IMG/VR virus record: IMGVR_UViG_3300014502_000008
Span: 1 to 54,085 of that record
DNA length: 54,085 nucleotides
Source of the DNA: a virus
Reading direction: 5' to 3' (one strand)
This document shows, piece by piece, positions 18,593-50,240 of this stretch. The notes under the pieces were generated by a model. It saw only the letters and a program-made list of their open reading frames with translations, was not told the origin of the DNA and ran no database searches. Made by a program: the position numbers and the translations under genes. Every line of letters begins with the position of its first letter. Position 1 is the first letter of the stretch.

Positions 18593-18996
18593 ATCAAAAC
18601 CAGATTAACCAGGAGCTTGCGAAGATTAAGAGCTGGTACAAGCATAATTGGCCCTTATGTATCTTCTGTAACCACCGTGTTAAGGGTGGACAGCTTGCAC
18701 ACCTGATCAGACGATCATACACCAGGGGTAACTTGCACATTTTGAAGCTCAACACCGGGCTGGCCCATCATGACTGCCATGAATTGTTTGATAACAACAT
18801 GACACAAGCTCAGTATTTACCCCGGATGGTAGAGGTTTTGTATATCATCTGGACCCAGGACAAGGAGTATTTCAATCAGATAGCTGATAACTTCCCGGAG
18901 CTGACCCCGGCAATAGAACAATTCCCGAACGTGCCGATCATGCCTCTGGAATATCATGGAGAATTATTATCTTTACAGTACTTACTCCAGTTTTAA
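18589..18996 (+). CDS. HNH-type nuclease / NinG-like protein (135 aa)
   Basis: The core CIFCNHRVKGGQLAHLIRRS followed by GLAHHDCHELFDNN supplies a CxxC knuckle, an AH-L catalytic-type histidine and an HHxCHxxF end, as in HNH / NinG-like phage nucleases. The C-terminal 55 residues are helical and family-neutral. It overlaps the NinB-like gene (ATGA), so the two probably act together on recombination intermediates. It is the last gene before the repeat-delimited accessory region. Confidence 0.75.
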   Translation: MNQNQINQELAKIKSWYKHNWPLCIFCNHRVKGGQLAHLIRRSYTRGNLHILKLNTGLAHHDCHELFDNNMTQAQYLPRMVEVLYIIWTQDKEYFNQIADNFPELTPAIEQFPNVPIMPLEYHGELLSLQYLLQF

Positions 18997-19044
18997 TTTC
19001 ATCTTTTATTTGCGTCGTATCACATAATTTCCGACATTTGATAT

Positions 19045-19116
19045 GCGGCATTTCCTTCCAATTGACTTGACTTGACAAAACGCAGCGAGACTTTCAATCA
19101 GGAGATGCCGTTTCTT
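19045..19116 (+). repeat. terminator-like interspersed element, copy 1
   Basis: The outer stem GCGGCATTTCC pairs imperfectly with GGAGATGCCG. The conserved single-stranded part CGCAGCGAGACTTTCAATCA precedes the right arm, and a T-rich tail (TTTCTT) follows. It lies between converging genes ending at 18996 and 19194 and could stop transcription from the left. It is the first of five same-orientation copies. Confidence 0.75.
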
Positions 19117-19193
19117 AAATTGTTTGAAATCAGCCAAGCGAGTACCTACTATCTTGATTTATTGAATTATTTATGACTAATCCACTAAGGATC

Positions 19194-19661
19194 TTAATTA
19201 GATAATGCTTTACCCACCTTTTCGATTACATTTGGAATACTGTCAATAAAGAAACCTAAGAAAAATGATAAAAGAGCAGATGCCACCAAGGGTTGAATTC
19301 CTTCCAATTTAGCAAAATGAGTAATAGAAATAATTGCAGAAAATATAGCCATTACAATAATCAAGAAAGGATAAAATCTGAAATACCTCAATCGGATTTT
19401 TTTATTTTCTAATTCCTCATTATCTGTAAGAGCTAAATTCGTAACTTTCTTAATGTGATTGATGCAAACCTTTAGAATTAATAAGCAAAATCCGAGTAGA
19501 GTAAATGCCAAACACCAGAGATAATATGTCCAACCAATTATACCATCGAAGATAAAGATAATAAGTAAACCTATAATTAGCATTATAGCAATAACAGAGT
19601 AACTTACTGCAAACTTAAATCGAAAGTCATCTTTAATTTTTGAGGTTTCCATAAGGTTCAT
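19194..19661 (-). CDS. four-helix membrane protein, cassette gene (155 aa)
   Basis: Four membrane segments at about residues 14-35, 40-62, 97-115 and 122-145, with short charged loops (TNLALTDNEELENKKI) between the second and third. I recognise no family. Much more AT-rich than the flanking phage genes. It is bounded by repeat copies 1 and 2. A role in the cell envelope, possibly in superinfection exclusion or defence, is speculation based on its setting. Confidence 0.6.
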   Translation of the reverse strand: MNLMETSKIKDDFRFKFAVSYSVIAIMLIIGLLIIFIFDGIIGWTYYLWCLAFTLLGFCLLILKVCINHIKKVTNLALTDNEELENKKIRLRYFRFYPFLIIVMAIFSAIISITHFAKLEGIQPLVASALLSFFLGFFIDSIPNVIEKVGKALSN

Positions 19662-19722
19662 TTTATAATGGTTAATTAAATCTATTTTGAAAGTTACGAA
19701 ATAATTCTGACCTTTGATATCA

Positions 19723-19803
19723 GCGGAATTTAATTCAAACTACTTTAACGAGTAGAATCATTGCGAGACATTTCTATTCCAACCAGGGGATGCCGCTTCT
19801 TTA
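19723..19803 (+). repeat. terminator-like interspersed element, copy 2 (divergent)
   Basis: AGCGG pairs with CCGCT at the ends. An internal CTACT/AGTAG hairpin and TTGCGAGACATTT lie inside, and GGGGATGCCGCTTCTTT forms the right end. Left arm and spacer are diverged from copies 1 and 4 but the layout and orientation are the same. Confidence 0.65.
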
Positions 19804-19931
19804 TTCACTTCAAAACAAATAAAGGGTCTAATAATATAAACTTCAAGATAAATTAGGTTTTAAAATGTTATAATAAACGTTCCCTAAATAACTACAGAAT
19901 TGTTAATTATGTTTAAGTAGAAATATTTTTT

Positions 19932-21197
19932 TTAGTTCACTTTACTGTTTTCAATTAGCAACTTAGCAATTTCGATTTTTGCCTTTACAAGTTCTCCTTT
20001 ATCAATATCCTCACTGTCTATTGTATCCAATATTTTCATGGACATCCCAACGTTGTTAATCTTTTCTAAGGTATGAGTATATTTTAATGCTTGTTTAACT
20101 GTAGATCTAAATATAAAGAGAAACGTCGTTCCAATAAACTCTGTTAATACGCCACATGAAATTGCAATAATTGAAATGTTTTTATTGCTCCCAATGAACG
20201 ATAGTAAAATTCCCAAACCTATAATCAAAAAGCCAACTATCATTACTCTAATACTTAGTTGATAAATTGAATTAATATGTTCAAGGTTTTTTTCAAAATA
20301 TTGCTGTAGAGTGAGATATGCTACATCCCACGAAGGCTTTATTTTATTTGGTTCATTTTTTAATTGCTCTTTTGCCTCTTCAATATCTTTCTCAGTTTCC
20401 TTATTACTATTTGGTTTCTTGTTTCCGCTTATTAGCATTAATAATAATATGATAAAAGTACCTGGAAAAAACAACCATGGACCATAATTATAAAAAAATT
20501 CTTTGGTAGAAGATGTTTCTGAAATAAAGTTATCTAATATAATCCCATAATAACTATAAGTGCTCCTGGGTATTTTTTGAAGAAGATTAAATTTCAATTC
20601 ATCTTTATCAAGATACTTTCCTTTATTTACAATTAGAATTGAATCAGAAAGGGCATTCGATATTGGTTTAAGACCTAAGCTATCCAAATAAAAATATGTA
20701 TTAGCAGATTTATAAAATATATTTGTACCATGCTTTTCGATTTCTTTAAGATTTTCACCTTTAAACTTTAATAAGATTTCGTAATTAAGAGATTCCGAGG
20801 ATGAGAAAGGCTTGTTAAAATTTTCAATCAATATCTTACGTGTTGAAGGGCTAATATTTACAGTATCTAAATTATTATCCAAATATATGTACCCTTCATT
20901 TTTCCCTTTGATAGCTCTTTTAACAAAATCACCATATTCTTTTAGTTCTGAAAAACTTAAGATGTTATTTATTTCCGTCACTATACTGTCTTGTGTTAGA
21001 TGCCTCACATTAAGTATCGATTTTAATTTAATAGTAGTTTCATTGTAATGAGAGATTCGAGATTTGTCGAAATGATAGTAATCCTTCATAAATAGTGGTA
21101 CGATTAAGAAGACCAGGCCAACTATCGCGCATAAGGCTGATAACAAAAAAAAGATATCGAAGACAGTATTTTTGATCTTTACTTTTGTGATTTTCAT
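19932..21197 (-). CDS. multi-pass membrane protein, cassette gene (421 aa)
   Basis: An N-terminal membrane helix (about 12-35) is followed by a roughly 200-residue extracytoplasmic domain with no recognised motif, and a second membrane helix at about 236-256 (PWLFFPGTFIILLLMLISG). A charged, partly coiled-coil cytoplasmic linker follows (KKPNSNKETEKDIEEAKEQ), then two close helices (about 307-330 and 338-362) and a charged C-terminus. No family assigned. AT-rich, and the sole gene between repeat copies 2 and 3. Sensor-like topology is visible, but function is unknown. Confidence 0.65.
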   Translation of the reverse strand: MKITKVKIKNTVFDIFFLLSALCAIVGLVFLIVPLFMKDYYHFDKSRISHYNETTIKLKSILNVRHLTQDSIVTEINNILSFSELKEYGDFVKRAIKGKNEGYIYLDNNLDTVNISPSTRKILIENFNKPFSSSESLNYEILLKFKGENLKEIEKHGTNIFYKSANTYFYLDSLGLKPISNALSDSILIVNKGKYLDKDELKFNLLQKIPRSTYSYYGIILDNFISETSSTKEFFYNYGPWLFFPGTFIILLLMLISGNKKPNSNKETEKDIEEAKEQLKNEPNKIKPSWDVAYLTLQQYFEKNLEHINSIYQLSIRVMIVGFLIIGLGILLSFIGSNKNISIIAISCGVLTEFIGTTFLFIFRSTVKQALKYTHTLEKINNVGMSMKILDTIDSEDIDKGELVKAKIEIAKLLIENSKVN

Positions 21198-21424
21198 TGG
21201 ATAATCTTATTTATTTGCACTGTGTTTAAGTTTAAATGCAATATATCAAATAATTTCCAAAGTTTACTAAGGAATATTCCCTTCCTCTTTTGATACATCA
21301 CACAGTTAGACATGTTAGATCAGGGACCTCTGCTCTTACGAAGAATATCTTGTTTAGATTAAAAATTTCTTAACAAATCTATTTTTCTGGCCCCGGGACG
21401 TTTTAAATTTGAATTAAAATATTA

Positions 21425-21494
21425 GCGACACCCCTTTCCTTAAGCACGAGGAAATGCAGCGAGACAATTCAATCAAGGGGTGTCGCTTTTTTTT
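21425..21494 (+). repeat. terminator-like interspersed element, copy 3 (best folded)
   Basis: The outer 12-bp stem GCGACACCCCTT / AAGGGGTGTCGC is perfect. An inner hairpin TTTCCT / AGGAAA sits next to the conserved TGCAGCGAGACAATTCAATC, and a run of eight T residues follows. The complementary changes relative to the GCGGCAT/ATGCCGC arms of copies 1 and 4 point to selection on pairing rather than on sequence. Confidence 0.8.
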
Positions 21495-21503
21495 AAAATT
21501 ATT

Positions 21504-21779
21504 CTATTCGCTCCGTAGTTTCACATAAAGTTCATTAATTAAATAATTACATTTAGGACAACTGTGCGTAGCATTTGGAATTCCCTCTGTACGGCAGAGT
21601 GGACATTTCCATGTTTTCTCATCTCTGCTAAGGAACAGCATGGACAACAAATAGAAAGATTTTCTTATTCTTGAAACGTTAATACATAGATAAATAAAAC
21701 ATATCAGGATTATTAGTCCAATTATTCCTGAAATTATTGAAGTGATTAAATAAATGGTGCTAAAAGATTCTATTTCCAT
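21504..21779 (-). CDS. membrane-anchored single zinc-ribbon protein (91 aa)
   Basis: One N-terminal membrane helix (about 10-32) is followed by a cytoplasmic zinc ribbon KCPLCRTEGIPNATHSCPKC near the C-terminus, giving two CxxC knuckles 10 residues apart. Zinc binding is inferred from the spacing. The gene stops 10 bp from repeat copy 3 and lies in the same cassette as the five-ribbon gene upstream. No known function. Confidence 0.6.
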   Translation of the reverse strand: MEIESFSTIYLITSIISGIIGLIILICFIYLCINVSRIRKSFYLLSMLFLSRDEKTWKCPLCRTEGIPNATHSCPKCNYLINELYVKLRSE

Positions 21780-21898
21780 AGTTTTACAAATTTATTTTTC
21801 TTAAAATAATTATATATCACAATTTTTAATATTAGGGTGAGCTTAATTTAATGTCAATATTAAATTGTTTTAAATCTGAATTATTCTAAAAATGAAAG

Positions 21899-22822
21899 TT
21901 ATTGTGGCGTAATAGATTCCGTGTTCACATATAGTTCTTCTGTTGATCCTTCTGGTCTTACAATACAATAACTCAACCTGCTTTTAACAAGGTAGACTAC
22001 ATCATTTTTATGCAAATACTTAATCTGGCCTGAAAGAACCATTAATTCAAGAGCTTGCATATCCTTATTTGATGCACAATTAATCATCATATCAAAATTT
22101 TCCTTACTTGTACCAGCAAAAATGACATCCCTATTTATAATATACCTACCAGTATAATTTGTTTCATTCCTATTAGATCTAGAATATGAAGGCGTTGTTT
22201 CTCTAGAATCTGACGCCGGTTTACAGATCTTGAAAACTACTACAATTGCAACTAAAACAAAGCCTATTTTTAACCAGTTGCCTATATTATCAAATAGACC
22301 CACTACATCTACTCCCTCATCCTCATCATCACTCTCAGGCTTCAATCTGAATCCACAACTATGGCATTTCTCAGAAGAGCTTATTATGTCTGCTTTGCAT
22401 TTAGGACACCATATGATATGCAAGTCATTAATATTCTTATGTGTAAAATCAAATCCACAATAACTGCACTTCAGTGAAGCTTTAGTTATGTTTCTTTTAC
22501 AGTTAGAACATTGCTTCAAATCTTCCTCATAAACAATTACCTCGGGGGCCATTTTATACCCACAATCGGGGCATCTTTTAGAATCTTCAGGTATTTTGTT
22601 TTTACAGTGAGGACACTTTATGAGTACTTTATCTTTAATTAATTGATATCCACAAAGCGGACAAAAGTGAGCAGCCTCTGGTATACTCTTGCTGCATTTC
22701 GGGCAGGAAATTTGCTTTTCTTCAGCCTCTTTCTGAGAGATAATCTTAAATCCGCAATGCAAACAGAATAGAGAATCGTCAGGTATTAACTTATGACAAT
22801 TGGAGCATTCTATATCTGCCAT
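21899..22822 (-). CDS. protein with five tandem zinc ribbons and a membrane helix (307 aa)
   Basis: Five ribbons of the type CxxC-x(10)-CxxC occupy about residues 5-25, 40-58, 69-88, 108-127 and 139-157 (for example SCPKCSKSIPEAAHFCPLCG). A membrane helix (about 185-205, WLKIGFVLVAIVVVFKI) follows, then a C-terminal domain of about 80 residues (RYIINRDVIFAG...YLVKSRLSYCIVRPEG) that looks SH3-like. The ribbons would face the cytoplasm and could bind protein or nucleic acid. A TATATTTG box lies just upstream of the start. Not assigned to a family. Confidence 0.65.
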   Translation of the reverse strand: MADIECSNCHKLIPDDSLFCLHCGFKIISQKEAEEKQISCPKCSKSIPEAAHFCPLCGYQLIKDKVLIKCPHCKNKIPEDSKRCPDCGYKMAPEVIVYEEDLKQCSNCKRNITKASLKCSYCGFDFTHKNINDLHIIWCPKCKADIISSSEKCHSCGFRLKPESDDEDEGVDVVGLFDNIGNWLKIGFVLVAIVVVFKICKPASDSRETTPSYSRSNRNETNYTGRYIINRDVIFAGTSKENFDMMINCASNKDMQALELMVLSGQIKYLHKNDVVYLVKSRLSYCIVRPEGSTEELYVNTESITPQ

Positions 22823-22841
22823 AGTTTATCATTCATATTAT

Positions 22842-22849
22842 CAAATATA
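22842..22849 (-). promoter_or_regulatory. candidate -7 box for the zinc-ribbon gene
   Basis: The minus strand reads TATATTTG, an exact TAnnTTTG match, 20 nt upstream of the five-ribbon gene's ATG. No clear -33 element is visible. It suggests the cassette carries its own promoter. Confidence 0.4.
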
Positions 22850-22940
22850 AGCAATTGCGTTGAAAATAAATATTATCTGACTTGAATTAATTATTTGGAT
22901 TTTGTTTGCAATTTATCCTTAAAATTCTGAAATTTACTCT

Positions 22941-23029
22941 GCGGCATTTCCTTCCATACGAGACATTGACTTTCGACATCAACTTAGGAACGCAGCGAGA
23001 CTTTCAATCAGGAGATACCGCTTTTTTTA
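22941..23029 (+). repeat. terminator-like interspersed element, copy 4
   Basis: The left arm GCGGCATTTCCTTCC matches copy 1 exactly. The right part CGCAGCGAGACTTTCAATCA then GGAGATACCGC also matches except for one base in the stem, and seven T residues follow. The spacer is about 20 bp longer than in copy 1. It separates the divergent genes at 22822 and 23047. Confidence 0.8.
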
Positions 23030-23046
23030 TTAATTTTAAAAGGGTA

Positions 23047-23841
23047 ATGGAAACTAAAAGTAGAAGACCCTCAATTTTAGATATACTTGTTAGATATCTT
23101 ACATTTTTCTATTTGATATTTGTAATAATTGGATACTTAAGTAGCTATCTTTATTACATACAATTTAGAATTGATATTTCAAGTTACTTTACTCTTGAAG
23201 ATTATATTACTTCTTTTTTTGATGTTTTACCAGGACTTATTATTGGAGCTCTTACCTTATTAATACTCGGAATATTAAACTATAATAAAATAAAGAAAGC
23301 AAAGGCAAGAATAGAATCACATGTTAATGATGAAAATATTACTAATACAATTTATAGTCAAATTGACGAAAAAAATCTGAATTCATTTAGATGGGCACTT
23401 ATTGTTTCAACTATTTGCTTTGCCATTATTATATTGGTCCTAATTTTTACAAGAAGTAAATTGTTTTTTTTGTTTCTAATTCTATCTATCTGGTTTGTGT
23501 GTTTTTCAGGAGTATTCACTTTAATTTATTTTTTAAAAGTTAATAAAGCATTGGATTTTAACTTTGAAAAAATTAGTATTATAGCAGAAACTTTATTATT
23601 TATTTTATTTATTCAGTGTGGTTGGGGAACCCTGAATGGATTTTTTACTTTAAAATCCTCATCATGGGTTCCCAAGACTACGATAAATATTAATTCAGGA
23701 GAATCAATAAATAGCTCTGATAGCATCTTATTTTTAGGTGTTTCGAAAGACTATGTTTTCTTATACGACAAACTTGATCAAAAATCTATAGTTTTTAATA
23801 GATTAAATATTATTTCAATTGAATCTGAACAAAATAAATAA
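23047..23841 (+). CDS. five-helix membrane protein, cassette gene (264 aa)
   Basis: I chose ATG at 23047, because reading from further upstream would run through repeat copy 4. Membrane helices lie at about residues 15-35, 57-77, 118-138, 140-162 and 178-198, and a roughly 60-residue C-terminal domain ends the protein (SSDSILFLGVSKDYVFLYD). No family recognised. It is the only plus-strand gene in the array and is bounded by copies 4 and 5. Very AT-rich. Confidence 0.6.
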   Translation: METKSRRPSILDILVRYLTFFYLIFVIIGYLSSYLYYIQFRIDISSYFTLEDYITSFFDVLPGLIIGALTLLILGILNYNKIKKAKARIESHVNDENITNTIYSQIDEKNLNSFRWALIVSTICFAIIILVLIFTRSKLFFLFLILSIWFVCFSGVFTLIYFLKVNKALDFNFEKISIIAETLLFILFIQCGWGTLNGFFTLKSSSWVPKTTININSGESINSSDSILFLGVSKDYVFLYDKLDQKSIVFNRLNIISIESEQNK

Positions 23842-23870
23842 GAAGCGAGGAAATACTATGCATTATTAAA

Positions 23871-23948
23871 TTGTCATTTTCTCCCTTCACAAACATTGAC
23901 CTGATAGCAACACAACAAGACTTTCAATCAGGAGATGCCGCTTTTTTT
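23871..23948 (+). repeat. terminator-like interspersed element, copy 5
   Basis: The right half is the same as in copy 1 (GACTTTCAATCA then GGAGATGCCGC) followed by seven T residues. The left arm is degenerate (CATTTTCTCC still pairs with GGAGATG), and GCAGCGAGAC is reduced to ACAACAAGAC. It follows the 23047-23841 gene and could terminate it. Confidence 0.75.
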
Positions 23949-24055: not shown

Positions 24056-24586
24056 TTAGTAACCAACAATTTCGTTCTCATCTGGTATTTCAAATTTATT
24101 TGAATTATAGAAATACCTTATCTTGGTTACTTGCCTGAGATATCCACCATAACCATTCTTAGATCTATATGTTGCTAAAAAATAAACACAAAATTTTGTA
24201 CTGTTATTAGTCTTAAACCGTTTTAAAGAATCAATCACAGCCAATTCGGATTTTTTTATAATATTAAAACTGTCTATCTGAGTTTTGTATCTTACTATTT
24301 CTTTTTCAATGTTGACATCTTTTTTCTCAGCAGACTCTGCATTACTTAAGGCAACATTTATTAAGTCAATAATTTTTTCAGTGGATTGAATGCTACGTTC
24401 TCTTAGTTTTATTGGTATGTCACTTTCAGTAACAATTTCAGTAATGATAAAAGATTCTCTTTTATATGAATCAGGATCATTTAATTGAGTTAGTAGGAAT
24501 TTTTCAGCTTTCCGTATAAGCATATTATCTTGACTACAACTGAAATGAAGTAGAAGAATGATAAATAAAAAAATAAATCGCTTCAT
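24056..24586 (-). CDS. lipoprotein of unknown function (176 aa)
   Basis: The N-terminus MKRFIFLFIILLLHFSC is a typical lipoprotein signal with lipobox LHFSC and modified cysteine at residue 17. The mature part is highly charged with a helical centre (KDVNIEKEIVRYKTQI) and no recognised domain. It stops beyond repeat copy 5 and begins 20 bp downstream of the methyltransferase gene, on the same strand. AT-rich like the cassette genes. A surface or exclusion role would be a guess. Confidence 0.65.
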   Translation of the reverse strand: MKRFIFLFIILLLHFSCSQDNMLIRKAEKFLLTQLNDPDSYKRESFIITEIVTESDIPIKLRERSIQSTEKIIDLINVALSNAESAEKKDVNIEKEIVRYKTQIDSFNIIKKSELAVIDSLKRFKTNNSTKFCVYFLATYRSKNGYGGYLRQVTKIRYFYNSNKFEIPDENEIVGY

Positions 24587-24606
24587 AATTTTAAGATTAT
24601 CTATAA

Positions 24607-26250
24607 TTATAAATCAATTTTTATCTGTGTATCTGTATCAGTTGACTTCTTCTCAGCCTTCTTAAAAGTTTCAAACTTTGATTGTGGAATTAACGGACGT
24701 TTACCCTCAAGTAAATCCTCCACTGATATAACTTGAATCTTATCGCAATGAGCATTATTATAATCATCCGTAAACTGTCCTTCCTTCTTAGCAATTACCT
24801 GCATATTCCTTGTTATGTAATCTTTAAAACAAATAAAGATACCCATAGCTCCCTTCTTATCATTAACAGTCATGATGAAATGGTTTAGTTGTGTAGGTGA
24901 AGCATTACCACTTTTAACCTCCATCATAACAATGTACTTTTTATCATATATCGTGAAGGTTCTATAACCATCATAACCCATTTCGTTCCGGCGTTCGTTA
25001 GTTATGCCATGTAATAGAACTTCAATAATCCAATCCTCAAATTCTAATCTTCCACCCTTAACATTATTTGCAAGTTCCCTGGCTGAATCTATATCTTTCG
25101 GGAAGCCATGAATTTCTAAGGTCTTCATTATTTCATCGCCATAGCAATCAACCAATCGCTTTGTTATAAGTTTTACGGCGAGATGAGAAATATCAACACC
25201 AATCCATTTGCGTTTTAATTTTTCAGCGACAGTAACTGCTGTCCCACAACCACAGAAAAAGTCTGCAATAACATCGCTTTCGTTTGAGCTTGCTGTTAGT
25301 ATTTGTTCTAACAAGGCTTCGGGTTTTTGAGTAGGATACCCCATTTTTTCATTATGCCAAGAACGTAAAGGCTCAATATTGTCCCAAATATCTTGAGTAG
25401 GTAACCCTTTTGATTCATCTAAATATCTTTTACGTCTCGGTATATTATTTTTAGTATAATAAATCTTCCCTTGATTATCTAATTCTATCATAGTTGTCTC
25501 AGGACATCTCCAAAGCCCATTTATCCCTTTCCACTTATAATTATATCCACCTCCCGATAAGCCTTTTGCGCTCAAGTTATCCGACATCCATCTTCTCCCA
25601 TCTGAATCTTTATAGCGATAATATGTATCAGTATAATCTTTCGTATAAGGTTGATAAGTCTGTACCCATTTATTTTTGTCAGTTGCGGTATAATATAAAA
25701 TCACATCATGTGCATTACCAAAACCTTTAGCATCACTATGGGCACTTGTTCTTTTCCAAATTATCTCATTCCTAAAATTCTTTTCCCCAAATATTAGGTC
25801 ACATAATATCTTTAAGTAATGGCTCATTGTTGGATCACAATGCAAATAAAAACTTCCAGTATTTTTTAATAATCTGTGCATATACCATAACCTTATAGCC
25901 ATTGTAACCAAGTATGATATTGCACCTTTTGAGATATTAGTATTATCAAGATTCTTGAGGAAGTTATAAAGGCTTATGTCTAAATCTGAAAGCTCATTCA
26001 AAGTGTCCATATAGGAAACATTCGACCAGGTATCAGCAAAAGCCTCTTTCTGTGCAGTTGAATCAGTTAAGTCAACACTTTCAAACAGTACATTATAATT
26101 CCGTTTTGAGTTAAAAGGTGGGTCTATATAAATCAGGTCAATGAATCCTTGAGGATGCTCTCTGTATAACTGTTTTAGAATATCAAGATTATCACCGAAG
26201 TAGAGTTGATTTTTAGAGGGGAATTTTGGTGTTGGCTTGTTAGGGGTCAT
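24607..26250 (-). CDS. DNA methyltransferase fused to a Mrr-like nuclease-type domain (547 aa)
   Basis: Residues 43-46 are the catalytic DPPF (motif IV) and about 329-338 are the AdoMet-binding DFFCGCGTA (motif I). This order, IV before I, is that of beta-class N6-adenine / N4-cytosine methyltransferases. Residues about 395-545 look like a PD-(D/E)xK restriction-type domain (FEDWIIEVLLHG, then GYDGYRTF, then MMEVKSG). I start at the ATG at 26250, 18 nt from a TAGATTTG box; upstream frame positions to 26340 overlap the portal terminator. It may modify phage DNA, cut unmodified DNA, or both. It sits between the accessory array and the portal operon. Confidence 0.82.
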   Translation of the reverse strand: MTPNKPTPKFPSKNQLYFGDNLDILKQLYREHPQGFIDLIYIDPPFNSKRNYNVLFESVDLTDSTAQKEAFADTWSNVSYMDTLNELSDLDISLYNFLKNLDNTNISKGAISYLVTMAIRLWYMHRLLKNTGSFYLHCDPTMSHYLKILCDLIFGEKNFRNEIIWKRTSAHSDAKGFGNAHDVILYYTATDKNKWVQTYQPYTKDYTDTYYRYKDSDGRRWMSDNLSAKGLSGGGYNYKWKGINGLWRCPETTMIELDNQGKIYYTKNNIPRRKRYLDESKGLPTQDIWDNIEPLRSWHNEKMGYPTQKPEALLEQILTASSNESDVIADFFCGCGTAVTVAEKLKRKWIGVDISHLAVKLITKRLVDCYGDEIMKTLEIHGFPKDIDSARELANNVKGGRLEFEDWIIEVLLHGITNERRNEMGYDGYRTFTIYDKKYIVMMEVKSGNASPTQLNHFIMTVNDKKGAMGIFICFKDYITRNMQVIAKKEGQFTDDYNNAHCDKIQVISVEDLLEGKRPLIPQSKFETFKKAEKKSTDTDTQIKIDL

Positions 26251-26267
26251 AATCAGTAAATTATAAT

Positions 26268-26275
26268 CAAATCTA
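26268..26275 (-). promoter_or_regulatory. candidate -7 box for the methyltransferase gene
   Basis: The minus strand reads TAGATTTG, identical to the box ahead of the late structural operon and an exact TAnnTTTG match. It lies 18-25 nt upstream of the ATG at 26250 and supports that start. The -33 region is not clear. Confidence 0.45.
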
Positions 26276-26308
26276 CAAACATTTATTAGATTAGCATATA
26301 TCATAAAC

Positions 26309-26337
26309 AAAAAACCCCTCCAACTCGTACCGGGGGT
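26309..26337 (-). terminator. rho-independent terminator after the portal gene
   Basis: On the minus strand ACCCC pairs with GGGGT across a loop, followed by six T residues. It lies 38 bp beyond the portal stop and would end transcription from the polyvalent-portal operon before the methyltransferase gene. Confidence 0.75.
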
Positions 26338-26374
26338 CAAACCTAAACCTAACCTATGAAAAAAAACTATATCC

Positions 26375-28378: not shown

Positions 28379-31300
28379 TTATTTATTGTGCTTTATGTTT
28401 AATGCTTTAATCTGCTCATTACACTGTTTCATGAGGTCAAGGACCTGGTTACTGCCTTCTGTATCACTAAAATCAATCTCTTTGGATAGCTCTTTGATGT
28501 CCTTGTCGTAACTATTAACTATCTCCTGGTACTCTGCATAGTAGCTATTGCTCTCTGTTCTCTGTACCTGATCGCTTCCCTGGCCTAGCTCTGCCCTCTT
28601 TCCGTATGCTCCAACCAGCTTTTTATGCTTGTCGGACGTCTCTTTCAGATCATAATATTCAGAAATGATATTCCATTTTGCCGGTGGTGTCTCCCGGATG
28701 AACTTATTCACAAATGGCACGTTCTTAAAATCGATTGCTTTATTCGGGTTCATCCATTGTGATAGGGTGGTAAGCAAGTCAGATGCCATAGTCCCGGTGC
28801 CTCCGGTGTAGCCCTGGAAGATATGTTCAATGTATGATGGGTTCCAGTCACGTATCCAGGGGATATCTTTCTCGTTACCATTCTTGTCAGTGTAGAACTT
28901 ATATTGAGTGTCACCGGGGAATATCAGATCGGTAAAGAACTTTATCGCGGGGTTTACATTATCCTTGCCTAGTCCAGAGCTGGCTAGTGAGGCCTCCTGA
29001 TCTTTGGTGAATGGCTCTTTTGCAATCTTAAAGCCCATATAGTTACGGTTTGATGCATTCTCCATGAATGGTTTAATGACTGTTGGCATAATCGGAGCCA
29101 GGCTAAATTCACCTTCCTGAAAGAATCCTCCCAGGTCAATAGGTGTGAGGGATGAAACGAAGTTAACAAGCCCTGCCTTCATCCCGTCTTTAGCTGTCAT
29201 TTTGCCCTGTGAGATATCAAATACTATCGAACCTACACTCTTAAAGCCTCTCCAAAAGTGGGGCAGTGGTATGCTTATGTACTTACCCCCCTTGTCTCCG
29301 CTGTTAAAATACTTCAAGAGGTTTGGGATAACCAGGTAGTTCTGGCGCATGTATGGATTGATGTTCTGGTATTTTTCATCATCATCGTCACCGTCAGTTG
29401 CAGAGTTCATGAGGGCCTCAAGGAATCCCGCTACCATGAAAGAGACTGCAACGGTAGTAAACCTGGCCGGCGCATCCTTCGCCAGTTTGGAGTTCTTCTG
29501 TAAGGACTGCAAGGCTACATTGAAGAAGGCATAGAGTGAATCCCAGGCCTTGCTTCCTTTGCCTTTCCTGTTGAAGTTTACAGAGGCTTCCTTCGCATCA
29601 TAAGCTGCGTCCTCGTCTGACTTACCCTCTTGTATTGCTGATATGAACACTGAAAACCTTGTAGCATCCTCAAAGACCTGGTTCCAATGTGTGATAGCCT
29701 GGGCAGCATTATAGACTGCTTCCCTTGATTCACCTTTCAGTGTACCCCTGCTTACCATTCTCCTGATCTCCCTGTTCAGATCCTTTTCAATCTCTTCCGG
29801 GGTCTTATTATGTGAATAGCCGGTAGCTGCTCCTGCATTATAAAACCTTTCTAACATCTGGTCCTCTTCGTTATTCATATTAGGCTTGCCTAGTATGTGC
29901 CTTATGATAGCTGGGAAGGACTTTTTATAATTTACAAGGACCTTAGTCCCGGAATTACCCTTTATCCATTGGGTCAAGGTGGCTTCTGGTGCATCCCTCA
30001 TGAAGTTAGTGAATGGGAATACTACATTCCAGCTGGTCATTGTAGCCTTCATGAAGTTGTTTATCTGGCCTATAAAAGCCAATCCCTTATTCATATCCCT
30101 GGCATCCGCAATACCACCAAGTATGCTATGGTACATGTAATTCTGCTTATTCAAGGCCTGAGCAACCGGCAGGTATTTACCTTTGAAGATCATAACGATA
30201 TCACCATTGAGTTTACGGACTGTTACCTCATGCTCGTCAGCGTTCATCGGGGCTCTTAATTTCTGGTGTTCCCTGTATATTCTGGTTTGTACCCTTCCTT
30301 CATCCCATAATGCCTGGGGTGGTCTTTCGATTGTCGGTTCATATTCATAAGTCCCGTCTGGCAGGTCAATCCTGATATAGTATAGCTTCTTAATGGTAGC
30401 CATATCGTGTATGTCGTCATTCGCCAGGTTCTTGAGCAGGAGCTTTAACATTGAACCCTTAACCTCATTATCAACCTGTTCGCCTATGGCTTGAAACTGT
30501 GTATTAAGGACATATGCCAGTGGATTGTCGGCTAAAGACTTCCTTCCCTCAGCATGTTTGAGTGAGTTGGAAGTACCTGAACCCTTTGTGTAAACCAGGC
30601 CCTTAGCTGCTCCCTCTCTCCATCCTCTGAGTGGCACGAAGTACTTGAACTTATCAAGGTATTCCTGTTTCTGTTCAGGAGATATCCGTTGGGCTACTTC
30701 CCAGGTATCAAGAATGTTTGATGTGGCAGTTTTCATATTACTCCAAAGATCATCTATAAGCTCTTTAGGTGCCAGCCCTTCAAACTCTTCTACTATATCC
30801 TTAGCCAGCTCTTCCGGGTTGGTGTATTTACTTTCCTTCCCTGCCAATGGCATCACCCCTGAATAGTCTTTATTCTCAATAGCCTGAATCAGTTCTTGCC
30901 TGGATTCTTCATACTGCTTGGTCTTTGTCCTTATCTGGCCTGCAGAAGCCTTCGGATTATCCTCTAGCCACTTGTTAAGTATCCCTGTCTGATCGTTAGT
31001 CCATTCTGTCAGCTCTCTTTCTCTGAATGACGGGTTACGTTCCAGGGCATGTTTGGCAATAAGGTATGGTAGTATATTCTCTCCTGTGAATCCTGCCTTG
31101 ATCAGCTTAGAAACAGATTTCAGTACTGGCTTCATCTTTAGCTCAGAGAAGTCCTTATACAGCTTCTCCTGCCTTCCGAATGCCAGGCTTATGTCTCGGT
31201 ATGATTTGGCATCATTGGTCTGCTTGCCTCCCTTCTTTAACATGGTTTCCTCAAACCAGCGTACTGGCAGGTTCATATCCTGAAGATATTCCCGGATACC

Positions 31301-34300
31301 CTGTAATGTCTCGTGCAGGCTCCGCTTTGTCTCCTTCTCAGCTGCAATATCGGTAGCTGTCTGCAATGGGCCTTCTTCATCTACCAACTTGGAATGTACC
31401 CCTGATCCTGGTCCATCAGTCCCTCCCTTGAATAAGACATAATCAGAACTACCGTATATGATTCCATCAATACCAGCCCTGCTAAGGAATTGTGAGGCTG
31501 CCTTAGTAGTTCCCAGGGCCTTAGTGAGCATGTCATATACTTTTGATGCTGGTGTTACGTCCCAAACTGCAAGCTCAAGGGCTGCATTGTTTATGCCCTC
31601 TGCCTTCATCTGGTCAGCTATCTTAACAGTCTGTGCTGCGGTAAGGTGTTTCTTCGTATTAAGCATGTCCTTACCGGCAATCTTCGTCATATCAGAGCCA
31701 TAATTGCCCCAAATGTCTGACCGGACCGGATTGATTGACCTGTCATAAACAGTCATGGCGTCCAGGTAGTCTTCCGCTGTTGTGAAGTCTTTACCTTTGG
31801 GCTTTGCCTGCTTCTCAAGGTTCTTTTTGCTTTCCCGGAGTAAGCTATGAATATCGCTAGGGGTAAAGTCCACCTTGAAGATATTGCGTAACAGTTCCCT
31901 GATCTTGGATATTACCCGATTAAGCAATGTTGGGTTGATATCCTTCTCTGCCATGTCTGCCAGGTACTCTTCAGCAATCAGGTCCGGGTCTTTCGATCTG
32001 TAAACCTTACCAATCCGGGATATTTCTTCCTGTTCCATGCTGTCATACACATCGTTTAGCAGCTTCTTGTGTGCTGTCTCTCCTAGTAGTGTCCTTAATC
32101 CTTTGTGCGCTACTGCCTCATGTAAAACTGTTACCAGGGCCTCCTGGAAGTTCTTTGTTTCAGCAAGGTTTATCCATATCTCACCTGTTTCATCAACATA
32201 CAAGCCCGGTACCCGCTTGTTTCCTGCTGTCTTTTTAAGATAATCCTGAACGTCACTCGGGAACTCTGATCTGTTACGTGCAAAACTGACCTTAATACCT
32301 AGCCTGTTGGCAAGCAATTCAACCCTTCCCCTGATTTCCCTTTCCTTCTGGCTCTCCTGTCCGTTGTTCTTTGCTTCCAACCATGCAACCGGGTCAACCT
32401 CATTAATAATTGGCTGTGCCTGCACTTCTGTTGTAGGGGAAAACAGTACATCACCAATATTGAATAGTAATTTCTGTCCCTGATTCTCTTTCTCGGCTGT
32501 TGTGGCTGTTTGCTCCATCTTTTTGAGCATGTCATTCATCCCGGCAAGAGTATTATCATAGTCCTGCAGAACCCTTTTTATGTTCTCAATGGAACCATCC
32601 TGAGGGATATCAAACATTGAAGCCTGTTTAACTACTGGCTCTGGTGTCCCGAATAGATCAAGGCTGCTCTGGCTGGCTAATCTCCTGGCTAGCTCGTTCT
32701 TCTTAGCATCCCTGGCCTGTACGGTATTTCTAATCCTGCGCTTTATGTCCTCAATCTCTGCTCCAAGAGAAGGGCTGTCAGTGGCAATACGAAGGTGTAC
32801 CCCTGGATCGTCAGGATCTTCCTCTGGTCCGTTATCTTCTAGGTCGCTAAGTTCATTCTCCAGGTCTTTGAGGCTTCCCCCTTTCACATTCTCTAGGTCC
32901 TTGCTCGCTGCCTGGTTCTCACCCTGCATCTTAACCTCTAGTTCTGCAACCTCTTTGGCAGTTTCGTCCAGCTTGGCCTGTTTATCGAATGGCTTGGTGA
33001 GAAATTCTTCAAACTCAGGTATGTTAGCCTCGTTCCGCTTCAAGTATTCTTGAAAATACTCAACCTTTTCAGGATATATTTTTAACTGATTCGTAAAGGA
33101 TGTCAGGAACCCTCCCCCTGTGGTGAATGAGCCTGAAATATCTGTACTCCGGGACGTTGAGCCTTCTGGTGAATGGTCATAGAAAAACTTGTCCGGTCCG
33201 ATATTGTAAGTAACTCTTATCGGGGCTGCATACCCATTGACCTTAATCATTAAAGGATTAGCATTGTCCGTTGTACTCTTCTTGTAAGCAATGTATTTCA
33301 GCATTTCCACATCAAGCCTCTTGATCATAGCCTCTTTGCCTTCTGCTTTCGTGCCTCCCACTGTTACACTGGTTACTTCATTCTTAGGGAAGTCCTTAGC
33401 AAATAGCCCTATGGAATGCTTTACCTCTTCAAGTATCCTGGTGTATGTAACCACTGACTGCTTCGCATTCTTCAGGTTGCTCTTTGCCTCAATAAGACTT
33501 CGTTCATGGTTGAGTTTGGCTGTCTTTAGCTTTCGTAAATCAAAGGACTTCTGTTGCCAAAGGATAGCGAACTGACTGCCTGATAACTGGCTCATCATTG
33601 CATCGAATGACTGATCAGTCTGGTTATTGTCCGAATCATCGTTCATCTCCCTGTCTAATCCTTCGGCCTTCATCATCTGATTGATGAACTTCTGCTTAAT
33701 GGCTAGTCTCTGGTAGGCTGTTGCGTCCAGTGTCTTTTCAACTCCGTATGTCAGCACTTCAACCGGAAGTCCTAACTGTGAATGGCTATTCCCCTGTCGT
33801 ATAATCCTGCCATTGCGCTGTTCAAACTTCATCGGCATATCTGGTGCATCAATATGATGAGCAGCTTTAAGAAGGTCCTGAATATTTACCCCGGTGCCTA
33901 ACCTGGGAGTACTCCCCATTATAAACCTTAATTCTCCGCTACGCACTTTCTGGAAAATACCTTCCAGCTTCGTCCCCTTTTGATCTGATATTATTTCAAT
34001 CTCATGAGCTGGTACGCCCTGAGCCATGAGCTTCTGTTTAATATCATGATAAAGATTAAACCTTTCTTGTCCTGTCCTTAAATTCGGGGACTGGTACATG
34101 TCTGAGAAAATCGCCTGTGTCCCTAAGTAATCTGCTGATTTGTGATACAGCCTCATTGCCTCCTTGACAACCATGTTCGTCTTGCTCCCTGGGTCGTCAG
34201 GATTGTCTGGACTTAACAGTCTAAGGTCAATGGCTGCTTGCTTGGCTCTCCCGAATATTACAATAGGGATATGCCTCATAGCTCTCTTCTGTTTACCGGT

Positions 34301-37300
34301 AAGTTTCTCCCACTCAGCCAGCGTTCTCTTAAATACATTCATCTGTGCCTGTAATGGTTCGGTCTGTGGCATTATAACCTTTGTGAACTCACCGTTTTTT
34401 AGCTTGGGTATATTATTGCCCTCTTTGAACTCCTGCACATCATCGGTAAGAACGACATCAGCAACGGACCGGAAAGCCTTTAATAGTTCAGGTGCATTGA
34501 TATATGATTTGAACCTGTTTACGATCTTGAAGTTCCCGGAAGCGTTAAACTCAAGGGATGGCTCTATGCTTCCGAAGGTCCGGGCAAAATCGTCAAACCT
34601 TTCAATCCTGTATGCTTTTAATACATCAGGTGACAGGAACTTCATTACAGTCCATAACTCAGCCATTGTATTTGTTATCGGTGTGCCGGTAGCAAATACA
34701 ACATTCTTTTTCCCCATCTGCTCATGAATGAACCTAACCTTCATGTGAAGGCCTAAAGCTCTTTGGGACCCTGTGGTATCAATACCTTTGACATTGGTCT
34801 GTGCTGTGGCAAAACCTAGCTTCTTGTAAGCGTGTGATTCATCAACAAACAAGGCATCGACACCCATCTTCTCAAACAAGACAACATCGTCTTTGCGCCT
34901 GGAAGCCTGAGTTGTTATCTTAGTTGTTACTGCTGCTCCTGCTTTTGCCACGTCTTTAACAGACTTACTCCTGCCTTTGGGCTTCCCTAAGTTCACTAGG
35001 TCCTCTTCCAGTGCCTCAATAGCCTTCCTGGTATTCTTGGCTGCAACATTGTTATAAGCCCCATCGTCAACCTCTGCGAGTACATCTTCCAGCTCTGCAA
35101 TACGTTCCCTTATATACTCTCTCTCTCTAGCAGGATCATCAGGAATGAAGTTCAGGAAGCTCTGAGGAATTATGACTGCATCCCAATCGCCATAAGCTAT
35201 TTTATTAAGGAGCTTCTGCCTGCTCTCGGATTCCATCTGGTTCTTTGTCGGCACAAGTATCTTTGCCCCAGGGTATAGCTTTTTAAAATCACCCCCAAAC
35301 TGTTCAAGGGTGGAATTGTTGACCACCATTAAAGGTTTCTTTGCTATTCCTAGCCTACGCATCTCCATTGCAGCGGTAATCATGGTATAAGTCTTGCCTG
35401 TCCCAACCTGGTGAGCCAATAAGGTAGTGCCTCTTAATATCCTGCCTACTGCTTTGCTTTGATGTGCTCTCAGTGTTATATCCGGGTTTGCACCTGGGTA
35501 TTGTTTGAATGAAGGCATGGAGTAATTCTTCTCTACATAATCATTGTACTGATCGTTATAGATTGTCTCCAATGTTTCCATTTCTGTTTTCTGGTTCGGC
35601 ATCCAGTTAAGGAATAAGTCTGAAATCTCATCCATCTTACCCTGAGCTGCTGCTGTGGCTTCCGGGTCCCTTCTCTCTGTCCTCTGTCTGGTAACCGGAT
35701 CGTATTCCCGTTTCATTACGGTAGGGGTATGCAGGTTGAGAATCTTATCAATAAGTTCAATAGCTTTAAAATCAGTGGTTGCGTAAGTTCCCTGATTCTT
35801 TGCATTGTATTCATTACCTTTGTTTGATATCAACCAAGTACCGGTTCCCTGGTTAAAGAAAACCTTGCAGTCAACATCGATAGTCTCTTTAATAAACCTT
35901 TGGACTATATGACCTGGTATCCAGGGAGTGCCTAGCTTGTATTTAATCATCAAGCCCGGTATGTCTTTAGGGATAACCTTCTTGAGTGCGTCAACATTCT
36001 TCTTATAATCCGGATTATCTTCAACCAGGGCCTCTGCTACCTTTAACTTAGTTCTTACATACCCTGACAAGTAGGTCTCCTTATCCTCTAACAAGGCATT
36101 GGACGGATTTATAAATGCCAGACCTTCTTCCAGGAGCTTGTTTGTTGCTGTTTCTTTGTCGGTCCCTGTAAGTGAGGCTATGTAGTCAATATCTAGCTTG
36201 CCCCGGTAACTCATAGATACATTCAGGGCATCTGCAACATTTTCAGCTTTGGTAGGTTCTTCTACCGGGTAGTTAATCCTTTTTGAGAATATGTCACTCT
36301 TTGAGATCTCATATCTACGATACACCCCGCCAACCTTATTTGTCAGTATCTTATTTTCTACATCTTCCAGGGCTGACACTAGGTTGAACTCTGAATCATC
36401 TTCCAGAAATTCAAGTTTCTTATTCCGGTTGAATGTACCATAAGCCTTTACAAAGGAATCATAGGCTGTGTTTAGCTTGCTGCGTGTATCCTCAATGTCC
36501 TGCTCTGAGCTGTCCTTGCTCATTTCACTATCAAGGAGGGCCTTAGCTAGCTGTTTCAGATTTAGATACTCCCTTGTTATGGTCTTGTAGGGTACTGACC
36601 TCTTGCCTGAAGTGAAGTTATCATTATTCCAGGCTACTGGATGAAGCTCACCACCATTGACCTCATAGATCGTATCGTCCCGGTCAATTATTGTCCCTTC
36701 TTTGTCCCCTACCTCTGAGCCCTTTGCGCCTACCTCTGCTTTTGTAGCTACGGTAATGTTCTCCGGAAGTGACTTAATAGCCTCTTCCAAGAGTGCCTGG
36801 GTGTCTTGACCTTTGTCCGGGGTCAGTGTTTCGGAATCACCTGAGTAAAGCCCTCCTTTATTCACCTGGTATGCCAATACCATCTTGCCTAACATCATTT
36901 CAGGGTGTTTGATGTAGTACTCATTAACATCAATACCAACCTCTGCCCCGTTCTGGTTTTTTGTCTTGGTTAGTTCTGCTACTGATCTGAATGGTTCTGC
37001 GTATGGAGAAGGTGTCGTGCTTAGTCTTTTCTGAAATATCAGCATGTCGCTGGTTACTTCCGTCCCTGCGTTCTCTGAAAAGGTGTTGTTTGGCAGTCTT
37101 ATTGCTCCGATAAGGTCTGCATTACCTTCTGCTGCTACCCACTCCCTGAACTTTGCACTTGCAGCATTATCCATTGACGATTTAGAGGTAATGAACACCC
37201 CAATTCCCCCGGCTTTAAGTTGCTTAATGCCTTTTGCAATGAAATAGTTATGAAGTGAGAAGCCTTTAAGGTCCTTATTCTTTGCATCAAATGGTGCAGT

Positions 37301-40300
37301 CTGTCCGAAGGGGACGTTTGTCATGATAAGGTCAATGCTTCCGGGACCTTCAACTGCATTTTCATACCCGGTCACCCTCATTGTACCCTCAGGATATAGC
37401 TTTGACAGTATCCTTCCGGTAGTATTGTCCAGTTCATACCCTCTGAAACTTGAATTTTGTGCTATGTTCTGTGGAGCAAGACCGAAGAAGTGACCTATTC
37501 CAGCCCCAGGGTCAAGCACTGAACCACCTTTGAACCCTAGTCTCTCTGCAATGGACCAGGCCTGCTTGATTATTGGTGCAGGGGTGTAGTATGCAGTCAG
37601 AGTGGAAGTAACTGCCTGAGCAAACTCTTCCGCTGTCAGGAGCTTCTTGACTGCCTGATAGTGTGTATAGTATTTCTTAGCCCAATTCTCAGCCTGAGCG
37701 TCACTTCCCCATCCTCTTTCTTTAATCCTTTCATAGGTCCTGGCATTCTCAGCATGCAACACATTAGCAAGGCCTCCCCATCCGGTATAGGCTGCTAGTT
37801 TCTTCTTCTCTTCGGGTGTTGCGTTACGATTCTGTTTCTCCAGGGTTTGGAGTAACCGTATTGCTTGAAGGTTGGCTGTGATCTTTGCTATTTCACCCCT
37901 GGGAACAATGACATCATCAGGGGTAATGACGTGATTAAGACTATTTACATCTCGCTGAACATCTGGTTTCGATCCTGTATCAGGTAGGCTACTATTTCCG
38001 GTGTCATTCCCAGGCTGTTCATTATTTCCCACTTCTGGTGTTTTGTTATCTCCAGGTCCGGCTTGGTCGGACTCTTCGGATACGGGAACATCTGGTGCAT
38101 TGCTTTGTCCCATGCTTCCCTGTCCGGGGTGGACATCAGCAGGTTTGTTAGAACTTTCCCTGCCTGCTGGTTTATTTCCAGTAGGTGTTCCTTTAGTTTC
38201 CCTTCTTGGTGCAAAGAGATCAGTAAGTGAGGTTGGTTCTTGATCAACCAGTTTATCCTTCCCACTGACCAGATTGTCTGGTGCGATTGAAGTGTTGGCT
38301 GTGTTTTCATTGACCGGAGTATTAGCTACATCTAAGTTATCACTTATATTCGGATTGACAGGTTTATTCCCTGCTAAATCTGCAATGCCATTCATGAAAT
38401 CATCAGACTGCTTCAGTTCTGGTTTCTTTAGCCCTGATTCTTTTACTACATTTTCCGGGACCGGTTTGCTATCGAATATAGCGTGCATTACAATAGGCTG
38501 GTAATGCTGATTTATGGCTTTATCAATCCATTCTTTAGCAATACCCTTGTTTTGCTCGTCTGTTGTAGCATGGTAGGAAGTAACGCTTTGTTGAATAGGT
38601 TTCTTGTCCTGGCCTAACTGTGCGAAGTCAATCTCCCCGTTATAAACAGCATCAGAGAACTCCTTCAAGGTCATTTGCCATATTTCTTTTGGCTCCTTCT
38701 TCTCTTCGGTGATCTTATTAACGTCAGCTTTCGATACTGTTTCATACTGGTCCATGCCCTCGGCATCAAATTCGGGCCAGTCTCTTACTGCGTTGTAGAA
38801 CGATTTTAAGTAGGGCTTAATGGCATCGCCCATATCTTGAATCATTGCCTTAACAAAGTCTGTGAACTTCCTGGCACCTGATTCTATATGATAACCAGCT
38901 AGGGTTATCCCGGCTTGCATTGTCTCCGGGTCTATTCCCACGTTAAGGTTGCCTAGTTTGCTCCTGAGTATTGCTCTGGCTTTATCGGCTGCCTCCTTAG
39001 TAAATACTTTATTGGATTCTCCGTAACCTGACTTGGCTACTTCTGGTTGTTTTCCCTGGCTGCTTTCCTCTGTTCCAGCTCGTACTTCATCTCCCTGATC
39101 ACGTCCAGCGGGTGTTTCTTCTCGGCTATGGCTCTGATTTTCACCAGGTCCTTTACTGCTTTCAAGACTTGTGCTCTTTCTTCTTCTTGCTTGCTCATTT
39201 TGTAGTTCAGTATTAAGGTCGTGTAACTGATCTTCCCGTAACTTGAATGGAAAGGTAGTGAAGTGACCTGGATTAAACTTAATATCCTCAAGTAATTTAT
39301 CAACATTCAGACCATTTTTGTCTGAATACTCCATCACTATGTCTTTGACTTCGGGGTCGTTCATAATCCCGTCAGCTACTTCTACAACTTCTGGCTCATT
39401 GTCAATGTCTGCCTTTATTTGTGCCTCGTCATAGCCTTCAGGTAGCATGTGGTCGGGCATTACCTCTTTCCCCTGGAATCTTTCCAGGGCTTTTAACATA
39501 TTGCCTGGGGTGGAATACTTCTTGAGTATGTCAATGATAGAGTTAGGCATATCTTTACTCTCCCCTCCATCGGTAAACTGGAAGGCGTTCTCTAGCTTCT
39601 CATGAAATACATCTAATGCCACACCATCCTCACTGACAAGTCCTAAAAATTGCAATTTCCGTAACTCTTCGGAGCCTCTTTTGAATCCGGTATCACTTAT
39701 TACATCCTCTGTCTTAACCTTCCCTTTTCCAACAAAGAACTGAAGTACTGCTTCTTCAAATGAATTGGCAGGGCTATCTAATGCTATCTGTGTCCGGGAT
39801 TTGCTTTTTTTCTTAGGCTTAACCTGGTATGCAGGTTGCTTGGTCCTTGTGCCATCACCTAACCACTTTTTGAAGTCACTAACCTTCATGGCTGTCACGT
39901 TCCCTAGTCCCTTCCAGTCCGGGGAGTAGTTAGAGTTATAAGCATCGGTAGCCTCTTTAGCGGACCGGAAGCCCATCATGACCTTATGTTCATCAAAATT
40001 GCCCTGCGTGTCTAACTGGTCAACGACAAATACCCATCCTGACCCTGGGTGATCTCCCAGGAATACATCAACCTGGTCACCATCCTTACCCTGGGTACGT
40101 CTGAAGTAACCATAGGAATTGTTCATCAGCTGACTGTGGCTCTTCCCCTTCCTGATCGTTCCGGGTGCGTTCTTTAGAGTTATATCCATTCCCTGAATGG
40201 TTACATGCCCTTTCTTTGCGTTCCCTGCTTCGATCTGTGCATCGGAAGGGTGACCATCTACCTGGTCATTGGCTTTTGTAATCGAAACATGATCTTTGTT

Positions 40301-49899: not shown

Positions 49900-50168
49900 C
49901 CTTAGTCTTTGTCGGCTGTGTACATCAGCCTGAATTTAAACACTCTCTCTCGCTTGGTTTAATTGCCTTAAAAAAGAAGGAGTGCGGTTAGGCCTTTAGC
50001 GTGATTAGTCCATAATCGTTATTGCCTCCCCCTCCTATCTCTTGTCCCTTTGTACCCCATGTTGCAGGGGTACTTCCTAAACTTCGGTTAACCTCGGTTG
50101 TTGCATCTTGCATAATCTCACTTACCAAAGACCAGACATACTTCTCAGGAACCTACTTCGGATGGTTG
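49900..50168. other. non-coding stretch between tRNA and terminator
   Basis: No convincing gene. On the minus strand it holds a stem TACCCC / GGGGTA (about 50052-50085) and G-rich sequence. It may be the 3' part of the tRNA transcript or a small RNA, but I see no known RNA family. Confidence 0.4.
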
Positions 50169-50240
50169 TTGCGGAGGGAAGATTCGAACTTCCGACCTCT
50201 AGGACATGAACCTAGCGAGCTACCGCTGCTCTACCCCGCT
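50169..50240 (-). tRNA. tRNA-Met (CAU), initiator-like
   Basis: Full cloverleaf on the minus strand: acceptor AGCGGGG / CTCCGCA with an unpaired A1:A72, D arm GAGC/GCTC (A11:U24), anticodon stem CTAGG/CCTAG with loop TTCATGT, variable AGGTC, T arm GGAAG/CTTCC with loop TTCGAAT, discriminator A. The unpaired first position and A11:U24 are initiator traits. The anticodon stem lacks the three consecutive G:C pairs of classic initiators, and position 37 is G rather than A. CCA is not encoded. Confidence 0.88.

Follow-up and report, generated by a model that had tools for sequence, protein, structure and literature searches.

The stretch of DNA considered here (the window) is the whole virus record IMGVR_UViG_3300014502_000008, 54,085 bases long, which carries an SU10-type capsid gene, a P22-type portal gene and a terminase gene. 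A low-GC block of 7.4 kb separates a short plus-strand gene, whose end is at 18996, from the portal gene (26375); it is made of an array of five related hairpin elements with genes between them and then of two further genes, one for a DNA methyltransferase. We propose that the elements are mobile copies of a competence-repressing small RNA (sRNA), comparable to RocR/RocRp, which double as borders of gene cassettes, and we give this reading a probability of about one half. The array genes run in both directions and are more AT-rich than the phage core (GC 0.298 within the array against 0.43 on either side), as the initial annotation of this DNA had it. In a related phage contig (L131), with about 50-60% protein identity to the window phage, the gene preceding the array is followed by the portal gene only 23 bp later, so the site in the window is an occupied one with a known empty counterpart at that level of identity. 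The initial annotation had proposed to look for empty sites, and related phages, far from carrying the same genes in the same order, lack them; it drew the block too short, however, since the last two genes (24056-26340) are also missing from related phages. In order along the window the features are:

19003..19117, plus strand: element E1, -7-like box GACATTTG at 19033-19040, predicted RNA about 19045-19116, with outer stem, GCAGCGAGAC and T-rich tail
19194..19661, minus strand: cargo 1, a 155-aa membrane protein with a relative adjoining an element in bacterium G003 (contig C198)
19679..19802, plus strand: element E2, promoter-like box GACCTTTG at 19709-19716, with an intact inner hairpin and some mispairing in the outer stem
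19808..19857, plus strand: cassette left end of about 50 nt, CTTCAAAACAAATAAAGGGTCTAATAATAT..., also seen in bacterial cassettes (profile E 4e-9; the profile was built from four seeds, of which this copy is one)
19932..21197, minus strand: cargo 2, a 421-aa protein with a TRADD-N-associated two-transmembrane domain (PF20712, E 1.2e-12)
21381..21495, plus strand: element E3, perfect -7 box TAAATTTG at 21404-21411, predicted RNA about 21416-21492
21504..21779, minus strand: cargo 3a, a 91-aa membrane protein with a zinc-finger-like end (matches below curated cut-offs)
21899..22822, minus strand: cargo 3b, a 307-aa protein with repeated zinc ribbons
22899..23027, plus strand: element E4, promoter-like box GAAATTTA at 22929-22936, predicted RNA about 22941-23026
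23048..23841, plus strand: cargo 4, a membrane protein in the frame of an open reading frame at 22906-23841, its start past E4 being approximate
23855..23947, plus strand: element E5, a half element with 3' arm and core kept (ACAACAAGAC) and 5' arm gone
24056..26340, minus strand: rest of the foreign block, a 176-aa protein and a 577-aa N6/N4 DNA methyltransferase

The five elements score E 3e-20 to 5e-16 in cmsearch with a covariance model built from the same copies; independently of that model, the 18-nt core TTCAATCAGGAGATGCCG occurs four times in the window with up to three mismatches, where 0.05 occurrences are expected. Five related copies in one orientation are thus real, as initially annotated, but not all of them are complete inverted repeats, and the full hairpin fold is found in E1, E3 and E4 only. 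Folding energy is well below that of shuffled sequences for E1 (z -3.1) and E3 (z -3.8) and weaker for E4 (z -1.7), and compared to the other elements E3 has compensatory double changes at four stem pairs.

An alignment of eight copies at first, and of 28 later, gives the consensus order TTG-N20-GANNTTTG-ATAT(CA), outer stem GCGGCATTTCC, variable inner hairpin, conserved TGCAGCGAGACA(TATTTATTCCACA), closing arm GGAGATGCCGC and T-rich tail. In the outer stem 7 of 12 pairs are changed on both sides with pairing kept, which none of 500 shuffles reaches, and the wobble pairs on the plus strand (37 against 13 A.C, or 21 against 13 once the most biased column is dropped) point to a plus-strand RNA. 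Upstream, the elements are similar to the Bacteroidota -33/-7 promoter, whose consensus is TTTG/TANNTTTG (PMC6847099), and the box reads into the element's own terminator. The spacing is fixed in 16 of 55 copies, where mononucleotide shuffles give 0.14; the copies being homologous, this reflects a conserved arrangement and not independent origins. In layout each element resembles a very small unit of transcription, with a -7-like box, a hairpin RNA and a T tail. Neither the elements nor their single-copy chromosomal relative, described below, match any curated RNA family in Rfam 15. This resemblance to an sRNA gene, as well as the apparent complementarity of the conserved core to competence-gene starts, had been missed in the initial annotation.

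Most copies of the element sit in bacterial chromosomes, known here as metagenome-assembled genomes (MAGs). Scanning by pattern pointed to three Bacteroidales MAGs, all of them from a fen (29 of the 32 genome matches of the first pattern were rejected as chance matches lacking the hairpin, and L004, its sole match in IMG/VR, as a chance match). The covariance model search placed the relatives in one Bacteroidales family: several genomes have multi-copy elements in runs of 2-7 in a single direction, and many genomes of the same family have one strongly conserved single-copy relative. The latter sits between a short-chain dehydrogenase/reductase (fabG-like) gene and an M48 peptidase gene, named from their sequences rather than by profile; its outer stem differs and its core, UAGCACGAGGAAAUGCAGCGAGACAUAUUUAUUCCAC, is the same. 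Beyond the family no element was found in 393 genomes of the order, with few candidates scored per genome, nor, by a pattern with up to three mismatches, in 395 genomes of the phylum except G074. Exact patterns retrieved no elements from IMG/VR besides this record, and six related phage loci have none.

The longest array, with seven elements, belongs to G074 (L110 2339-10819, contig C147) and directly adjoins genes for a type I restriction-modification protein (HsdM) and a YhcG nuclease. Several genomes (L068 2925-3109, L078 1-170, L196 9476-9670) conserve a tandem pair whose stems, GGCGACACT and GGCGGTAC, belong to other classes; its second member has the same GCACGAGG...GCAGCGAGACA core.

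That the elements border exchangeable gene units is supported by their arrangement and by separate cases of shared cargo. Neighbouring elements less than 6 kb apart have the same orientation in 25 of 25 pairs, whereas gene direction relative to the element is random (28 co-directional and 24 divergent, on the 5' side); we therefore rejected the possibility that they are terminators of the adjacent genes. One gene-plus-element unit is present at three loci (L075, L120, L184) with 87-92% identity, ending at the T tail of the element. A 365-bp unit with no recognised gene is present at two places of one array and recurs in two further genomes, both of its ends lying in elements; L074 has a shorter copy of it. 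A 74-aa gene is common to two genomes and is flanked there by different elements on either side. The 155-aa cargo gene of the phage has its sole relative among 62 genomes next to the element in G003, and the homology of its cassette with L076 stops at 19710, the 5' edge of E2. The interval between the def and comEC genes is about 40-250 bp in most relatives and is filled with differing cargo in G490, G003, G091 and G001. Cassettes are thus shared with different neighbours across bacterial loci, which ordinary terminators would not explain. In sequence comparisons 30 of 169 high-scoring segment pairs end within 20 bp of an element, which region makes up 1.7% of the sequence, but these cases are non-independent and the similarity of the elements themselves draws the ends to them, so the separate examples carry the argument.

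Comparisons of left ends and motifs were made after inspection of the data. The conserved left end of about 50 nt opens some cassettes, including the one following E2, while most have no recognisable left end. Half and hybrid elements join near GCAGCGAGACAAT. In G490 (contig C153) a 3.7-kb cassette insert is flanked by a 73-bp direct duplication, 97% identical, of the comEC upstream region (L184 9690-9763 and 13469-13541), and the insert starts directly after GCTGCA, inside the duplicated copy of the comEC motif. Along with the half elements and the joints close to GCAGC, this insert suggests a further possible role of the core, as a target of recombination or insertion.

The same core appears complementary to the starts of competence genes. 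In about 29 genomes its reverse complement overlaps the start of comEC (GUCUC-AUUA-GCUGC-NGACU-GUG-CUA), and the non-coding part of this motif is conserved down to 52% protein identity. The comEC match was spotted during locus comparison, while comM and dprA were not chosen beforehand and emerged from a ranking of predicted pairing against 573 background start regions, where comM took ranks 2, 8 and 14, comEC 2 and 3, and dprA 3; the identity of all three genes was checked with Pfam. For competence genes minus background the difference comes to -10.9 kcal/mol, where shuffled seeds give -3.9 +/- 1.5 and none of 500 does as well, and GTGCTA is present in 6/6 competence starts, in 4/573 others and in 2/184 start regions of unrelated bacteria. 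The result is the same in a larger set, of 846 start regions, comEC dominating the list because 30 comEC loci were fetched on purpose. By folding prediction most of the AGCAC loop and of the GCAGCGAGAC stretch is left free of pairing, both in the core RNA and in E3, which holds the full pairing core AGCAC...GCAGCGAGAC at 21443-21465, and the predicted duplexes take the form of one long duplex with a small bulge for comM and of two blocks for comEC and dprA. Among the phage elements, E3 ranks comEC 1 and 3, dprA 3 and comM 3 of 573, E1 pairs best with the comEC start of L072 (rank 1 of 573), and E4 has the same start at rank 7. Computed in this way, complementarity to competence-gene start regions is above chance for three gene families, and targeting of comEC, comM and dprA is a prediction.

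From this analysis it would be logical to suggest the following. Each element may be an sRNA gene in which a Bacteroidota-type -7-like box drives a hairpin RNA of 70-95 nt up to a T-rich terminator, and it is a mobile relative of the single-copy, putative chromosomal sRNA gene known from this Bacteroidales family only. The exposed core (AGCAC loop and GCAGCGAGAC) would base-pair with the comEC, comM and dprA messages at their start regions, and this pairing would block DNA uptake and recombination of the imported DNA. Phages, conjugative elements and cassettes with copies would then shut off natural transformation in the host, in the manner of RocRp in Legionella, and the phage may benefit from it. 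Cassettes join at these elements, so that cargo is exchanged there. A number of points weigh against this proposal. Targeting by an sRNA leaves the strict common orientation of the elements unexplained by itself, and the -7-like box mostly has G in place of the nearly invariant T at -12. The whole core is present in E3 only, with its second half in E1 and E4 and little of it in E2 and E5, and the three competence gene families covered include only two as orthologue sets. Some tyrosine recombinase genes carry the motif at their start too, in swapped order. Finally, the comEC motif might be what is left of an inverted element, or else an insertion target, given that the G490 insert begins exactly within its duplicated copy.

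That recombination or insertion takes the core as its target is the chief rival of the sRNA proposal and a genuine caveat to its reading of the competence-gene targets. The elements would then be attC-like (although not attC) sites of a host recombinase, and their sRNA appearance would be secondary. We consider it unlikely, even though the uniform orientation beside random gene direction, the element-bounded units at several loci, the half and hybrid joints and the start of the G490 insert would all fit: no recombinase adjoins any array, a model scan of the fetched flanks found no element at any of 50 transposase or integrase loci (Y1 transposases and tyrosine recombinases), the integrases with the motif at their start have no arrays, and there is a fixed single-copy gene with the core as well. 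A combined form, with comparably low odds, would be a new Bacteroidota cassette system whose recombination sites are themselves sRNA genes, each captured cassette adding one more copy of an uptake-silencing RNA, so that capture and protection would be one device for phages, conjugative elements and chromosomes.

It is somewhat harder to see the elements as plain promoter-terminator modules without a competence role, acting as homology patches at which general recombination shuffles the neighbours, as proposed for the PeSLs of T4-like phages. They do combine a promoter-like box with a terminator and are about 70-90% alike, the phage has a single-stranded DNA-binding protein and its lineage includes an empty site; but the bulk of copies is in bacterial chromosomes, an identity of 70-80% across some 100 bp suits RecA-type exchange poorly, and the complementarity to comEC, comM and dprA is left unexplained. 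Least probable to us are non-autonomous transposon ends, where a left end and a hairpin right end with cargo between them would be moved in trans by a Y1 or tyrosine enzyme. The left end opening several cassettes (also after E2), the duplication around the G490 insert and the occurrence of Y1 transposases in these genomes speak for it, whereas most cassettes lack a left end, strict common orientation is unusual if insertion is random, no element adjoins a Y1 gene within the fetched flanks, and a 73-bp duplication is atypical for IS200/IS605 elements.

Five tyrosine recombinase genes (SAM_4 and Phage_integrase domains; L260 475, L258 3069, L265 1800, L266 877, L272 1378) carry CTCGCTGT/C immediately ahead of the start codon or close to it, with a conserved GTGACTGACGRGGC upstream; these may be further sRNA targets or att sites. 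About 70 bp past the stop of two different integrase genes there is a core AGCA...GCAGCGAGACAA, on the strand opposite to the gene and with a terminator-like hairpin after it (L270 211-220, plus; L275 2234-2243, minus).

Among known systems, RocR/RocRp of Legionella, a core competence-repressing sRNA with plasmid- or island-borne copies (PMC11472951, PMC9764711), is similar in having a chromosomal sRNA-like gene, copies on mobile DNA and, here by prediction, pairing to competence genes. It differs by phylum and shows no sequence relation, repression by the present elements is a prediction, and the present copies also border cassettes and are many per genome. The Legionella system further includes a partner RNA chaperone, RocC, of the ProQ/FinO type. 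In pneumococcus, prophage integration alters the host csRNA3 that targets comC (PMC9764711); this too is a phage-linked RNA which lowers transformation, as the phage elements are predicted to do, but our phage has its own copies, with predicted targets comEC, comM and dprA. Integron cassette arrays and CALINs (clusters of attC sites lacking an integrase) in phages (PMC9892861) likewise have co-directional hairpin elements bordering small AT-rich phage genes with no integrase nearby, and the exchangeable cassettes with sites in one orientation are an integron-like trait. The cassette logic of the initial annotation is supported in part; its integron version is not. R boxes (RYYYAAC / GTTRRRY, complementary) are found in none of the five window elements, in line with the lack of clear attC ends already noted, and in 1/55 copies, by chance. 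The stem G.T pairs lie on the plus strand whereas attC folding needs the bottom one, which here folds no better than shuffles, E3 excepted, and a promoter-like box stands upstream. Neither IntI with attI nor any other recombinase is encoded among the roughly 30 window proteins scanned (some small open reading frames were outside the scan); the initial annotation, too, had seen no integrase. We rejected attC and integrons for these reasons, and likewise SAM_4-type integrases as an attI platform, there being no arrays at those host recombinases.

In a PeSL, a kind of unit of T4-like phages, a stem-loop is coupled to the promoter of the following gene. PeSLs (cited in PMC4503421) are repeated promoter and stem-loop units between variable phage genes and sites of module exchange, and in this the window elements are alike; however, their promoter-like box precedes and feeds the stem-loop, and they are found mainly in bacterial chromosomes. 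With its SU10-type capsid and P22-type portal the phage is not T4-like, and we do not class its elements as PeSLs.

If the sRNA proposal is true, the conflict of mobile elements with natural transformation extends to another phylum, Bacteroidota, in which we know of no described competence-regulating sRNA. The phage would gain a ready-made competence silencer, and a natural-transformation regulon would be predicted in uncultured Bacteroidales. Whatever becomes of the sRNA reading, an element-bordered cassette exchange that is not an integron is documented here, though the route by which cassettes move may be one of several.

We infer the host of the phage from the elements and cargo that it shares with bacteria. 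Contig C198 of G003, with the relative of the 155-aa gene, also encodes a conjugation-type coupling ATPase, identified by eye. An anti-phage role of the cargo, which the initial annotation had raised as a possibility, is not borne out by PADLOC, which gives 0 matches among the genes lying between elements. Annotated phages contain no relatives of the array DNA or of the TRADD-type cargo, and only distant ones of the terminase; terminase relatives in three Bacteroides phages (PQ571277.1, PQ571269.1, PQ571263.1) are annotated as tail spike protein, which is probably a misannotation. One open reading frame of 5066 aa (28379-43579) takes up about 28% of the phage genome, its matches in related phages being only partial, and a tRNA-Met (CAT) gene lies at 50168-50240 on the minus strand.

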